In this document: positions 2,586-10,886 of the stretch, one piece after another | Position numbering within the stretch: position 1 is the first letter of the stretch | Layout of the letters: each line of letters starts with the position of its first letter | Notes under the pieces: model-generated | The model's input: the letters and a program-made list of their open reading frames with translations, nothing else | The model's database searches: none | Told to the model about the DNA's origin: nothing | Program-made: the position numbers and the translations under genes | From: a virus | IMG/VR virus record: IMGVR_UViG_3300042868_004914 | Coordinates: 1 to 20,879 of that record | Reading direction: 5' to 3' (one strand) | Length of the DNA: 20,879 nt

Positions 2586-3229
2586 TGACTATAACTAACG
2601 AGGATAATATGGAGTTAATGGCAAGGTATGAAGATAATCATTTCGACCTTGCTATTGTAGACCCGCCTTATGGGATTGATAGTAAAATTAGTACTGTGAG
2701 CAGTTTAAATAAAGGTAATAAATTCGCACAATTATATAATGAAAAAAGATGGGATAAATTTAGACCTGAAAATGATTATTGGTGTGAGTTATTAAGGGTT
2801 TCAAAAAATCAAATTGTTTGCGGCGGAAATTATTTTGCTGAAAAATTGCCAGTAAGTAGAGGTTGGGTAGTTTGGGATAAACAAGGTGAAGGTATGACTA
2901 GCGTAAATAATGAGTTAATTTACACTTCATTTGATTATTCAATTAAAACGTTTTCAAGATGTCATGGACTAGATAAAGGATTTATGGCAAAAGGAATTGA
3001 TAAAGTTTTTCATCCAACACAAAAACCTCAAAAATTATATAAATTTTTATTACAAAATTACGCTAAACCAAACGACAAAATCCTTGACACACATTTAGGT
3101 TCTGGAAGTATTGCAATAGCTTGTCACGATTACGGTTTTGATTTAACAGCTTGTGAACTTGACCGTGAATACTTCGACAAAGCAATGCAGAGAATTAATA
3201 ACCACGTGGCACAACAAAAACTGTTTTAG
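2582..3229 (+). CDS. Site-specific DNA methyltransferase (beta class, N6-A/N4-C)
   Basis: 215 aa. Motif IV DPPYGI is at residues 27-32, HPTQKP at 144-149, and the AdoMet-binding motif I region DTHLGSGSIAIA at 169-180. Catalytic motif before AdoMet motif is the beta-class order of amino-methyltransferases, which use AdoMet to methylate adenine N6 or cytosine N4 in DNA. The ASP-Pro-Pro-Tyr form favours adenine. The region between, where the target recognition domain should be, is short (NYFAEKLPVSRGWVVWDK). No restriction nuclease is nearby, so it is an orphan enzyme, probably protecting phage DNA or altering host regulation. ATG 2582 is in the stop of the upstream gene; ATG 2585 is an alternative. 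It is the last gene of the early operon. Confidence 0.9.
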   Translation: MMTITNEDNMELMARYEDNHFDLAIVDPPYGIDSKISTVSSLNKGNKFAQLYNEKRWDKFRPENDYWCELLRVSKNQIVCGGNYFAEKLPVSRGWVVWDKQGEGMTSVNNELIYTSFDYSIKTFSRCHGLDKGFMAKGIDKVFHPTQKPQKLYKFLLQNYAKPNDKILDTHLGSGSIAIACHDYGFDLTACELDREYFDKAMQRINNHVAQQKLF

Positions 3230-3301: not shown

Positions 3302-3745
3302 ATGAGCAAATTACAATTTTTTGAGATGAGAGCCGCAGAAATGACTGCTATGTATGACAGCACTTTTACTAAAAAAGATGCTGTTAAAACTGGAGAGCAA
3401 CTAATCCAATCCGTACTGGATGATGGTAGTTGCGATATTATGCAATTAGGGGCGAATTTAGCTCGTTTAGAGCAAGTTGTTTCAAGTGCGATGGCAAAGT
3501 TTAGAAGCCATATTATCGACGCTGAAAAGCAGGTTATTTTAGGAGTTGAATTTTCGCCAGTAAATGGTGGCAATACCGTAAATTATGCAGACGATGAGAT
3601 ATGGGCAACGATTAAAGCGGATTTAGACGCTCGTACCGAACAGCTGAAAATGGCACAGAAACAAGATACGTTTGATGCTTATGGAAACCAAGTGCCGAAA
3701 GTTTCAATTTCTCCGAAAAAAAGTAGTGTGAAAATTAAATTTTAA
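3302..3745 (+). CDS. Hypothetical phage early protein (147 aa)
   Basis: Unknown function. The N-terminal two thirds is helical and moderately acidic (LQFFEMRAAEMTAMYD, LIQSVLDDGSCDIMQ, LARLEQVVSSAMAKFRSHI). The end is a basic tail with PKVSISPKKSSVKIKF. A probably disordered linker with QKQDTFDAYGNQVPK separates the two. The basic tail would suit nucleic acid contact, but no named domain is visible. It follows a candidate -7 box and is the first gene of the recombination block, separated by only four bases from a 54-aa ORF. It is cytoplasmic by composition, with no signal or membrane segment. Confidence 0.65.
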   Translation: MSKLQFFEMRAAEMTAMYDSTFTKKDAVKTGEQLIQSVLDDGSCDIMQLGANLARLEQVVSSAMAKFRSHIIDAEKQVILGVEFSPVNGGNTVNYADDEIWATIKADLDARTEQLKMAQKQDTFDAYGNQVPKVSISPKKSSVKIKF

Positions 3746-3749
3746 AATT

Positions 3750-3914
3750 ATGAAAGTAGAAATAGTAGTGAAAAATTTTAATCAAAATTTGTATAAATTT
3801 GAATGCAAAATAAATAAAAAAATAAAACGTTTTAAAAAGGAATGTAAAGAAATTAAAGACGTCAATATACTTCACGATGGTGAAACTTTAATTGCAATTA
3901 TTAAATATATTTAG
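3750..3914 (+). CDS. Hypothetical very basic small protein (54 aa)
   Basis: ATG at 3750 in the AAATTATGAAA context, stop TAG at 3912-3914. The product begins MKVEIVVKNFNQNLYKFECK, has a lysine-rich helix (KINKKIKRFKKECKEIKD) and ends HDGETLIAIIKYI. The high charge suggests a small nucleic-acid-binding or partner-binding protein, but nothing identifies a family. It starts four bases after the preceding gene, so it is likely in the same transcript. Its 3' end carries the -33 and most of the spacer of the promoter for the following leader RNA. Confidence 0.5.
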   Translation: MKVEIVVKNFNQNLYKFECKINKKIKRFKKECKEIKDVNILHDGETLIAIIKYI

Positions 3915-3922
3915 TATATTTG
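3892..3922 (+). promoter_or_regulatory. Bacteroidetes-type promoter for the 3934 leader
   Basis: TTG at 3892-3894 and TATATTTG at 3915-3922 are separated by 20 bases, matching the TTG / TAnnTTTG pattern of Bacteroidetes housekeeping promoters. Transcription would start near 3928-3932, just before the structured leader. This is the best promoter match seen in the window. Confidence 0.6.
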
Positions 3923-3933
3923 CCAAACAATAC

Positions 3934-4010
3934 GGTCAGGTATTGAAACGAAAAATTATTTCAAGCCCTGATATGCCTTTGCTGACCCAAAGGATTTTAT
4001 CAGGGTTTTT
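3934..4010 (+). ncRNA. Structured leader RNA with competing terminator and loop pairing
   Basis: Three pairings can be read. (a) TCAGG 3936-3940 with CCTGA 3967-3971, and TTGAAA 3943-3948 with TTTCAA 3959-3964, form an upstream hairpin. (b) CCCTGATA 3966-3973 with TATCAGGG 3998-4005, enclosing CCTTTG 3976-3981 with CAAAGG 3988-3993, forms a terminator followed by TTTTT. (c) GGTCAG 3934-3939 is a perfect complement of the terminator's apical loop CTGACC 3982-3987. Pairings (a) and (b) share CCCTGA and exclude each other. This looks like an attenuator, a riboswitch-like leader or a pseudoknotted small RNA ending at the terminator. The ParB-like start at 4023 lies 12 bases downstream. I match it to no known RNA family. 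Confidence 0.6.
3966..4010 (+). terminator. Intrinsic terminator in front of the ParB-like gene
   Basis: An 8-bp perfect stem (CCCTGATA/TATCAGGG) with an inner 6-bp perfect stem (CCTTTG/CAAAGG) and a tail of five T at 4006-4010. It may simply end the upstream transcript, but it lies downstream of a promoter and just before the next start codon, so it can also act as a premature terminator for the ParB-like gene. Confidence 0.7.
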
Positions 4011-4022
4011 AAATTATTAATT

Positions 4023-4712
4023 ATGAAAACAACAAATTATGAACTTTTCTCTTTCAAAAAAGAAAATAGAGGAATTTCAAGACAAAAAGTAACGCAGCTA
4101 AAAGCTAATTTTGTAAAATTTGGTTATGATGAAAATTACCCAGTTTTAGTAGATGAAAACTTTTTAATAATTGATGGTCAACACCGTTTCTTAGCTTGTA
4201 GAGAATTAGGCGAAGAAATTAATTATGCATTTGCTAAAAATAATTCAAACGAATATATGAGAAGTTTGAATATAGTATCGTCCGCTTGGGAGTTGGCTGA
4301 TTATATTCGTTCGTATGCAACTGAGGGCGTTAGTTGTTATGTGGAACTTTTAGCATTTAAAGAAAAATACAACCTGACAATGTCAAATGCAATTGTTGTA
4401 TTTTTTGGGCCATCAAAAACAAAACAAATTAGAAAAGGAGAAGATATTTTAAAATTAAAAGACGCTGATAAAGTAGCTGAAACATTGAAAAATTTTGAAT
4501 TGCTAAAATTTAATTATTCTAAAAACTTTGCCGTGGCTATTCAATCTATCTTTGCCAAGAATATATCTGAAAAGAACTTAAATACTTTATTAGAAAAGCA
4601 ATTTTTAATAAATGAAATGGCTTCTGTAGTTCAATATTTGAAAGTCTTTGAGGGCATATTGAATAACCGAAGAGGAGTTCGAGAAAATGTTTACTTTACA
4701 AATATAAATTAA
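4023..4712 (+). CDS. ParB/Srx-fold nuclease-like protein (229 aa)
   Basis: The N-terminal 95 residues have the ParB/sulfiredoxin pattern: a start with conserved positioning residues (KENRGISRQKVTQLK), the strand PVLVDENFLIIDGQHRFLA at 40-58, and the key box DGQHR at 51-55 with the arginine typical of ParB box II. In this superfamily the fold binds or hydrolyses nucleotides or nicks DNA. The rest is helical with no visible HTH for a centromere site, so phage ParB-like nuclease or regulator is a better description than a partition protein, and no ParA is present. It is preceded by the structured leader and followed after five bases by the ERF gene. Confidence 0.75.
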   Translation: MKTTNYELFSFKKENRGISRQKVTQLKANFVKFGYDENYPVLVDENFLIIDGQHRFLACRELGEEINYAFAKNNSNEYMRSLNIVSSAWELADYIRSYATEGVSCYVELLAFKEKYNLTMSNAIVVFFGPSKTKQIRKGEDILKLKDADKVAETLKNFELLKFNYSKNFAVAIQSIFAKNISEKNLNTLLEKQFLINEMASVVQYLKVFEGILNNRRGVRENVYFTNIN

Positions 4713-4717
4713 TTATT

Positions 4718-5230
4718 ATGAAAGAAATAGCAACTGCCTTAGTCAAAGCGCAATTAGAAATGGTAGCACCAAAAAAAGGAAGTGTAAACCCATTTTTTAA
4801 AAACAAGTATGCTGATTTAAACGACGTACTATCTGCAGTAGTTCCAGCGCTAAATAACAACGGAATTGTACTTTTACAACCATTGGTTAATATTGATGGT
4901 AAAAATTATGTTAAAACAGTTTTAATGCACGAAAGCGGAGAAACGTTTGAAAGTCTGGCAGAAATATTTTGTAACAAACAAAACGATGCTCAGGCTTATG
5001 GAAGCGGGATAAGTTATGCAAGGCGTTATTCTTTAAGTTCTATTTGCGGAATTGGAAGCGCAGACGATGACGGACAAAAAGCAGTACAACCAAAACCAAA
5101 CGCCACTTTTGAAGTTTTAGAAAAAGCAGCAAAAGTAAATGCTACTATTGAACAAATAAAATCAAAATACAAAGTAACAACCGAGCAAGAGGCTCAATTT
5201 TTAATATTAAAATCAAACAACAATGAGTAA
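4718..5230 (+). CDS. erf: ERF-family single-strand annealing protein
   Basis: 170 aa. The family signature appears as NPFFKNKYADLNDVL (residues 24-38), the central strand region NNNGIVLLQPLV, and QAYGSGISYARRYSLSSICGI followed by an acidic DDDG. ERF proteins (from phage P22 Erf) form rings that bind single-stranded DNA and anneal complementary strands in phage recombination and genome circularisation, acting in the cytoplasm. It overlaps the SSB-like gene by eight bases and lies two genes before a nuclease, a common grouping of annealer, binding protein and nuclease. The C-terminal 45 residues are a variable helical tail. Confidence 0.9.
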   Translation: MKEIATALVKAQLEMVAPKKGSVNPFFKNKYADLNDVLSAVVPALNNNGIVLLQPLVNIDGKNYVKTVLMHESGETFESLAEIFCNKQNDAQAYGSGISYARRYSLSSICGIGSADDDGQKAVQPKPNATFEVLEKAAKVNATIEQIKSKYKVTTEQEAQFLILKSNNNE

Positions 5231-8454: not shown

Positions 8455-8898
8455 ATGCTTGAACAGTTAGCAAAGAAAGATACATACTGGCGGAAAATCG
8501 CCTTAAAAATCTGTAACAATAAAATGTTAGCAGACGACTTGGTTAACGATATGTATTTAGCTTTGAACAATTGCAATAAAGAAATAAATGATTTTTATGT
8601 AATTATCACTATTAAAAACTTATTTTTACAGGAATTAAAGAATAATAAGTCAACCGATTTAAACGACAATTTCACAAGCGATGCACCGTTTGAGTTGGAT
8701 GATCAAGAAAAGAAAATAGTTGATAATGTGTATTGGGTGGCAAAGGAGTATATAGAAATGAATGAAACGATGTCAGTGCGAGAGATTGGCAAGGTTTTAA
8801 ATACTAATTATAATTTTGTACACCACACAATTAAAAAGGAAAAATTAAAATGGCAAAAAGAAAATCAAAAGGACTTGGCGATACAATCGAAAAAGTAA
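8455..8898 (+). CDS. Sigma-70-like RNA polymerase sigma factor (phage late regulator)
   Basis: 147 aa. Residues 10-45 (YWRKIALKICNNKMLADDLV, then NDMYLAL) match sigma region 2 of ECF-type factors, including the DLVNDMYL helix that contacts core polymerase. Residues 105-135 (MSVREIGKVLNTNYNFVHHT) look like a degraded region 4 helix-turn-helix for the -35. Between them is an acidic linker. Short sigma-like proteins at this spot, just before terminase genes, occur in Bacteroidetes phages. The likely role is to direct host RNA polymerase to late promoters; that is inference from family and place. It overlaps the next gene by 49 bases. Region 4 is weaker than usual, so a different polymerase-binding role is possible. 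Confidence 0.7.
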   Translation: MLEQLAKKDTYWRKIALKICNNKMLADDLVNDMYLALNNCNKEINDFYVIITIKNLFLQELKNNKSTDLNDNFTSDAPFELDDQEKKIVDNVYWVAKEYIEMNETMSVREIGKVLNTNYNFVHHTIKKEKLKWQKENQKDLAIQSKK

Positions 8899-9718: not shown

Positions 9719-10886
9719 ATTAGGAAACAAAACACGCTACTTCGTTTTAACAGGTGGTAGAGGCTCTGGTAAGTCCTTTGAGGTTGGCAGATTTGCCAGC
9801 CTCTTATCGTTTGAAGCGGGGCATAAAATCCTTTTTACAAGGCAAACGATGACAAGTGCGCATTTGTCTATCATTCCAGAATTTCAAGAGAAAATAGATT
9901 TATTAGAATTGAATCACGCTTTTGAAGTTAAGAAGTCCGAAATCGTAAATACACAATCTGGAAGCGAAATAATTTTTAAAGGAATCAAAACCTCCAGCGG
10001 AGACCAAACAGCGAATTTAAAATCTTTGCAAGGTGTAACCACTTGGATATTGGATGAAGCCGAGGAACTTATAGACGAATCAATATTTGATAAAATTAAT
10101 TTTTCAATTAGACAAAAAGGCAAACAGAATAGAATCCTTTTAATTTTAAACCCATCCACAAAAGAGCATTGGATTTACAAAAAATTCTTTGAACAGGCAG
10201 GAGTTACCGAGGGGTTTAATGGTACAAAAGGAAATGTAACCTACATACATACAACTTATTTAGACAATTACGACAATTTAGACCAGTCTTTTATTGATGA
10301 AGTAGAGCAAGTTAAGAAAAACAATCCTAAAAAATACGAGCACGTTATACTTGGTGGTTGGCTCGACAAAGCCGAGGGAGTTGTATTTACAAATTGGCAA
10401 TACGGTACTTTCAATCCTGATAATTTACAGACAAGTTTTGGGCAAGACTATGGATTTAGTATTGACCCTACAACATTAGTAGAGGTTGCAATCGACAAAA
10501 AGAAAAAAATCATTTACTGCAAGGAACATCTTTACAAACCGAAATTAACAACGTCGGAAATAGCACAAATAAACAACACTATCACAAAAGGAAAGTTAAT
10601 CGTAGCGGATAGCGCAGAGCCTCGTTTGATTGATGAGTTGGCAAAGTTAGGCAATAGGATAATTGGAACCACGAAAGGCGCAGGAAGTATCAATGTAGGC
10701 GTGGAGTTGATGAAAGATTATCAATTGATAATTGACGGAGAAAATATAGGCAAAGAATTAAACAATTATGTGTACACGGATAAAGGCTCTAAGTTATACT
10801 GCGATATGTGGAATCACGCGCTCGATGCAATCCGTTATAATGTGACCTACAATTTAAGCGGTGGATATAATTTCGATATTCGATAA
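9687..10886 (+). CDS. terL: Terminase large subunit
   Basis: 399 aa with both domains. ATPase: Walker A GGRGSGKS at residues 23-30, Walker B WILDEAEE at 120-127 with catalytic Glu, and the coupling region LILNPSTKEHW. Nuclease (RNase H-like): D254 in DYGFSIDPTT, D308 in VADSAEPR and D380 in HALDAIRY, the usual three acidic metal ligands. The enzyme pumps DNA into proheads using ATP and cuts concatemers. The length and the GGRGSGKS form fit the PBSX/Terminase_3-type group. ATG 9687 is the only near start and overlaps the small subunit gene by 32 bases. No portal gene follows, which is unusual. Confidence 0.93.
   Translation: MIQKHPKHWNRLGNKTRYFVLTGGRGSGKSFEVGRFASLLSFEAGHKILFTRQTMTSAHLSIIPEFQEKIDLLELNHAFEVKKSEIVNTQSGSEIIFKGIKTSSGDQTANLKSLQGVTTWILDEAEELIDESIFDKINFSIRQKGKQNRILLILNPSTKEHWIYKKFFEQAGVTEGFNGTKGNVTYIHTTYLDNYDNLDQSFIDEVEQVKKNNPKKYEHVILGGWLDKAEGVVFTNWQYGTFNPDNLQTSFGQDYGFSIDPTTLVEVAIDKKKKIIYCKEHLYKPKLTTSEIAQINNTITKGKLIVADSAEPRLIDELAKLGNRIIGTTKGAGSINVGVELMKDYQLIIDGENIGKELNNYVYTDKGSKLYCDMWNHALDAIRYNVTYNLSGGYNFDIR

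Follow-up and report, generated by a model that had tools for sequence, protein, structure and literature searches.

The leaders of IncI/IncB-type repZ genes, which act on translation and are controlled by antisense RNA, contain a stem-loop I whose loop pairs with a downstream structure. Among phage RNAs, the put RNAs of HK022 are antiterminators without a terminator of their own, and in the lambda pR'-Q leader Q acts through DNA. We know of no attenuator in which a 5' hairpin kisses the terminator loop itself, and no description of such an arrangement was found in the open-licence PMC literature. In pT181 an antisense RNA controls the leader terminator of the replication gene (PMC4878617). 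In the fluoride and ZTP riboswitches a terminator is coupled to a pseudoknotted aptamer (PMC11077080, PMC10085676), and the pistol ribozyme has 10 highly conserved nucleotides (PMC4604425).

The phage leaders reported here, in which the loop of a 5' hairpin (HP1) is complementary to the loop of a predicted terminator hairpin (HP2), share traits with each of these systems. As in repZ leaders, a leader loop pairs within the same molecule with a downstream structure ahead of a replication gene, but in the phage leaders that structure is a transcription terminator, which pairs through its loop. Like the put RNAs and the lambda pR'-Q leader they are promoter-proximal structured phage RNAs placed before an operon and followed by a terminator that has to be passed, but their sequences and structures are unrelated to either. 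With the pT181/pIP501-type attenuators they have in common the replication-gene leader, the kissing hairpin loops and the intrinsic terminator between promoter and gene (PMC4878617), and differ in holding both kissing loops in one RNA, one of these being the terminator loop itself. The fluoride and ZTP riboswitches also couple an upstream pairing to a downstream intrinsic terminator during transcription (PMC11077080, PMC10085676); unlike them, the phage leaders have no conserved ligand-binding nucleotides, their helices change freely, and the contact is with the terminator loop.

The window, by which we mean the whole 20,879-nucleotide stretch analysed (virus record IMGVR_UViG_3300042868_004914, positions 1 to 20,879), carries one such leader. 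An earlier note had described positions 3934-4010 as a structured leader RNA with its own promoter, in which the terminator loop pairs with the 5' end. All of the pairings that it named are present where it placed them (Table 1). The promoter-like box reads TTG-N20-TATATTTG, and in Flavobacterium TTG is established as a -33 element (PMC8092290). Folding of the 77-nt stretch is better than that of its shuffles (z -2.86), and GGTCAG and CTGACC are perfect complements. The 5' boundary has to be revised, because GGTCAG is the loop of a 6-bp hairpin, which the note had missed; the element therefore starts approximately 6 nt earlier than 3934, five bases 3' of the promoter box. As two complementary six-base loops are present in one RNA, the contact is best described as an intramolecular loop-loop kiss between HP1 and HP2 and not as a simple 5'-strand pseudoknot. 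Folding energies are -4.6 kcal/mol for HP1 and -17.9 to -21.2 kcal/mol for HP2.

Table 1. Features of the kissing leader and of the operon that follows it in the window.
Feature	Positions	Strand	Details
Bacteroidota-type promoter	3892-3922	+	TTG 3892-3894, N20, TATATTTG 3915-3922; read from sequence
HP1	3928-3945	+	CAATAC(GGTCAG)GTATTG; 5' hairpin at predicted transcript start, 6-bp stem
Kissing sequence X	3934-3939	+	GGTCAG; entire HP1 loop, perfect complement of 3982-3987
Alternative pairing TCAGG/CCTGA	3936-3940/3967-3971	+	read from sequence
Possible alternative pairing TTGAAA/TTTCAA	3943-3948/3959-3964	+	HP1 end with linker
A/U-rich linker	3946-3963	+	between HP1 and HP2
Terminator hairpin HP2	3966-4005	+	CCCTGATA-TG-CCTTTG(CTGACC)CAAAGG-ATTT-TATCAGGG-TTTTT (T5 run included)
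HP2 outer stem	3966-3973/3998-4005	+	CCCTGATA/TATCAGGG
HP2 inner stem	3976-3981/3988-3993	+	CCTTTG/CAAAGG; read from sequence
Kissing sequence X'	3982-3987	+	CTGACC; six-base apical loop of HP2, complements 3934-3939
T5 run, predicted intrinsic terminator	4006-4010	+	directly 3' of HP2
First gene, ParB-like protein	4023-4712	+	PHROG phrog_12305, E 4e-24; no Pfam match
Second gene, ERF single-strand annealing protein	4718-5230	+	Pfam ERF PF04404, E 1e-25

The operon was correctly recognized as ParB-like/ERF, and its ATG lies 12 nt past the terminator end. An ORF of approximately 145 amino acids without a family match adjoins the leader and the ERF operon both here (3302-3745) and in the phage of locus L009 (approximately 2767-3204), and perhaps specifies an unrecognised recombination accessory protein. 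Further downstream, with the terminase gene following some 0.8 kb later, a 147-amino acid protein (8455-8898) gives a weak match to sigma-70 region 2 (E 0.007, below the curated cut-off) and is a possible phage late sigma-like factor.

A DNA similarity search gave a near-identical contig as its sole match. This contig (IMGVR_UViG_3300042549_003734; loci L002/L004/L007) is identical to the window over the leader region and hence provides no independent covariation evidence. The leaders upstream of distant homologues of the ParB-like gene could not be aligned with that of the window, and the family was therefore sought by structure. Phage loci with genes for ERF protein relatives were scanned for a promoter box, a hairpin and a T run, and many of them had the same layout in very different letters. 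A descriptor comprising the box, X within 24 nt, a hairpin loop holding the complement of X, and a T run returned 28 leaders at 863 promoter boxes on the phage loci, versus 0.67 per shuffled set. Later rounds, in which HP1 was required, brought the number to 33, to which elemo and FCL-2 and then two leaders with weak T runs were added. The resulting 37 distinct leaders belong to Flavobacteriia phages, share a common order and spacing, and use at least 23 different kissing sequences, 21 of which were counted in the first 33 leaders. They are carried by Flavobacterium phage 11b, the muminphages, elemo, FCL-2, Olleya phage Harreka_1, IMG/VR contigs, and one prophage-like locus in a Flavobacterium MAG (L084).

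In a set of 11 phage sequences, complete or long and 454 kb in all, nine leaders score at least 34, versus one in five shuffled sets (0.2 per set). The descriptor demanded a TAnnTTTG box and, except in a few members, a T run (T4), so the conservation of box and T run is partly by construction; in the window X begins 11 nt after this box and the T5 run follows HP2. Flavobacterium phage 6H, Bacteroides phage B124-14 and Cellulophaga phi46:1 gave no leader, nor did phi13:2 over its first 50 kb.

The shared plan is a promoter box, a 5' hairpin, an A/U-rich linker, a kissed terminator hairpin and an ATG; from the box to the start of X there are 9-14 nt. HP1 has a marginal stem in some leaders (0 to -2 kcal/mol), and HP2, computed without the kiss, ranges from -10 to -22 kcal/mol. 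The linkers are 53% A and 33% U and mostly 16-22 nt long; three of 33 have 30-32 nt with an extra hairpin inside. A T run of four or more directly follows a GC-containing hairpin in 35 of the 37 leaders, a proportion that the T4 in the descriptor biases upward; weak T runs are found at L009 2533 and L058 6498. For the first 33 leaders the ATG lies 7-25 nt past the hairpin in 28 and 35-53 nt past it in four, while in one it was not found in the stretch read. One subtype (L028:6950-7053, L040:5271-5375 and L036:3973-4071) has an extra linker hairpin, e.g. TTAGTC/GACTAA, and upstream A's that pair with the U run of the terminator (CGACAAA...TTTTGTC), a pairing which would weaken a simple intrinsic terminator.

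The next gene downstream is nearly always one of DNA replication or recombination, although in several phages a short ORF without assignment precedes it. Replication initiation proteins are found in FCL-2 (gp54) and in two other loci (L012 and L044), and the DUF6291 replication protein in 11b, elemo and, by annotation, Harreka_1; elsewhere there are ResIII, DEAD and SF1 helicases or a primase-polymerase, next to the ParB-like and ERF pair of the window. A second leader in L009 likewise precedes an ERF operon. Cumulative GC skew gave no consistent link between leader and replication origin, and this idea was dropped. Phage snusmum6-1 (L066) has three leaders, at 9728, 13667 and 14705, ahead of a helicase, an endonuclease and a helicase/primase operon. 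Their kissing sequences are unrelated, with at most three consecutive bases of X in common, which favours pairing in cis within one molecule, or of like with like in trans. In Flavobacterium phage lillamy9-1 the spot that the kissing leader holds in the window, directly upstream of the ParB-like gene, is occupied by a DUF805b RNA (Rfam RF02914, E 7.8e-12; L006:2880-2914).

Covariation across homologous leaders had been proposed as the check on the GGTCAG/CTGACC contact, and pairing of this type is retained through compensatory changes and not lost. In the alignment of five homologous leaders of the lillamy type, every sequence retains each of the 27 pairs (100%, against 30-43% when slid). Three pairs of its eight-pair kissing helix have changed on both sides (A-U to G-C, G-C to A-U and C-G to A-U), as have three pairs of HP2. 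Near-identical leaders differ by compensatory double changes in the kissing helix (GTGAGACG/CGTCTCAC, GTGGAACG/CGTTCCAC and GTGAGAAG/CTTCTCAC). Ten leaders of the 11b-like subtype have 98.4% of cells paired, versus 30-47% when slid, with double-change pairs in HP1 (four), the kiss (one) and HP2 (six). G-U pairs are kept in HP1 and HP2 on the leader strand, which indicates an RNA read in the leader direction. In the first 33 leaders the match between a loop and its own partner is 6-9 bases long, versus a mean of 3.1 for non-cognate partners.

Covariance models R1, from ten IMG/VR leaders, and R2 were built from two subtypes with the kissing pairs left out to avoid circularity. Either model finds the subtype from which the other was built, as well as more divergent leaders such as those of elemo, Harreka_1, L014, L029 and the window; R1, built from other members only, finds the last with an E-value of 0.011-0.016, which is borderline on its own. 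Together they yield 28 distinct sense leaders (one further match, in antisense, was left out), and all 28 have a kiss of at least six bases. In elemo the true kiss is that of TGAGAGC with its loop, a longer match there being due to chance. In 398 Flavobacterium/Flavobacteriaceae genomes the matches of R1 resemble ordinary terminators and have no kiss by the descriptor, under strict filters that would miss divergent subtypes. The promoter-like box, the three helices, their covariation and the genomic position are all features of the sequence itself. What is conserved in the family, at this level, is the kiss, HP1, HP2 and the spacing; loops complementary by at least six bases are preserved by compensatory change, and evolution maintains the pairing while the letters change completely.

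The earlier note had also been right in matching the element to no known riboswitch or ribozyme. With Rfam 15, at the gathering threshold as well as at permissive E-values, there was no match in the window or at the leaders of 13 relatives; when four more small loci were scanned sensitively, the single match was unrelated and below threshold. The subtypes have no sequence in common apart from the A/U-rich linkers, which speaks against a metabolite aptamer or a ribozyme, and Rfam agrees. A self-cleaving ribozyme or riboswitch was rejected since the kissing sequences and stems vary freely between leaders. The pistol ribozyme is comparable in that a 5' hairpin loop pairs inside a downstream hairpin, but its catalytic core and pseudoknot were not recognized here: there is no Rfam match, and stems and kissing sequences are free to vary. 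As the leaders lack tested defining features of the known families considered, we regard them as a new RNA family and a new variant among attenuators.

Two coupled, mutually exclusive choices had been read into the window leader, with CCCTGA pairing either to the X arm or within the terminator. This part is not supported. The alternative pairing is good in the window (z -1.7), where TCAGG/CCTGA also appears in folded prefixes of the leader, but over 35 leaders such a pairing is at best weakly favoured (mean z -0.49). In geometry, the kiss can coexist with the terminator hairpin. The antiterminator may thus be a local refinement in the window and not the mechanism. Like the pT181 type, the family has a terminator in the leader of a replication gene; a classical two-state attenuator would also have an antiterminator that pairs with the terminator's 5' arm, and over these 35 leaders such a pairing is not conserved.

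In our opinion the leader is probably, though by no means certainly, a cis-acting attenuator of the phage replication/recombination operon. RNA polymerase would start at HP1, make the A/U-rich linker and then the terminator hairpin, whose loop would pair with that of HP1, and would come to the T run, which lies 10-25 nt short of the first gene. With a terminator placed between promoter and gene, the operon would be expressed only by read-through. The kiss would form during transcription once X' leaves the polymerase and would set the chance of termination, which could be shifted by a factor of the host or of the phage, or by the state of infection. That the RNA is made and terminates, that the kiss alters termination, that a factor acts on the leader and that there is regulation at all, we infer. 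The weak T runs of a few leaders, the marginal stems of some HP1 hairpins and the antiterminator that is not conserved tell against this reading. HP2 is stable without the kiss, and it is therefore unlikely that the kiss is needed merely to make the terminator. More likely it affects when the terminator closes, displays a structure that a protein can bind or serves as a partner for pairing in trans. Given that the hairpin does not need the kiss for its stability, we slightly favour the possibility that the kiss slows closure and so increases read-through, although its effect may have the opposite sign.

That an ordinary promoter and terminator merely happen to share six complementary bases is very improbable. 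Such complementarity somewhere in a leader of this kind does arise in approximately 22% of shuffled sequences, but the covariation has already refuted this reading at the family level, and both the excess over shuffled genomes and the kiss in every leader that was found without using it tell against it. The leader might instead be a stand-alone small RNA, compact, nuclease-resistant and approximately 80 nt long, that acts in trans, e.g. on a host protein or RNA, with the operon merely following. The unit is complete from promoter to terminator, hairpins lock both of its ends and the kiss compacts the molecule; nevertheless we consider this unlikely, for the 7-25 nt spacing before the ATG of the replication gene is too regular, and beyond the linkers the subtypes share no conserved segment that could bind a common target.

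It is rather more doubtful that the leader acts on translation or mRNA stability, the kissed structure guarding the 5' end or the access of ribosomes to the ATG and the T run being leaky and incidental. In most leaders HP2 does fall inside the ribosome footprint of the start codon, and some T runs are weak; yet a run of four or more T's is present in nearly all leaders, even if the descriptor inflates that count, and in four the ATG is 35-53 nt away. The attenuator that we prefer could have a further role, which we hold to be quite improbable: the terminated leader may also be a sensor of gene dosage, its X' pairing in trans with the X of new leaders of the same operon. Were this true, leader copies would accumulate and shift the termination of their own operon only, the private kissing sequences, which differ within one phage, would be address codes, and phages would possess a plasmid-like, protein-free copy-number control within a single RNA.

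A recurrent RNA element that is free in sequence but strict in structure heads replication operons in phages of the Bacteroidota, a phylum in which phage gene regulation is little known. It shows that the loop of an intrinsic terminator can be under selection. The leaders constitute a natural series of orthogonal kissing-loop leaders and, since 11b, the muminphages, elemo, Harreka_1 and FCL-2 are isolated phages, the element can be tested now.
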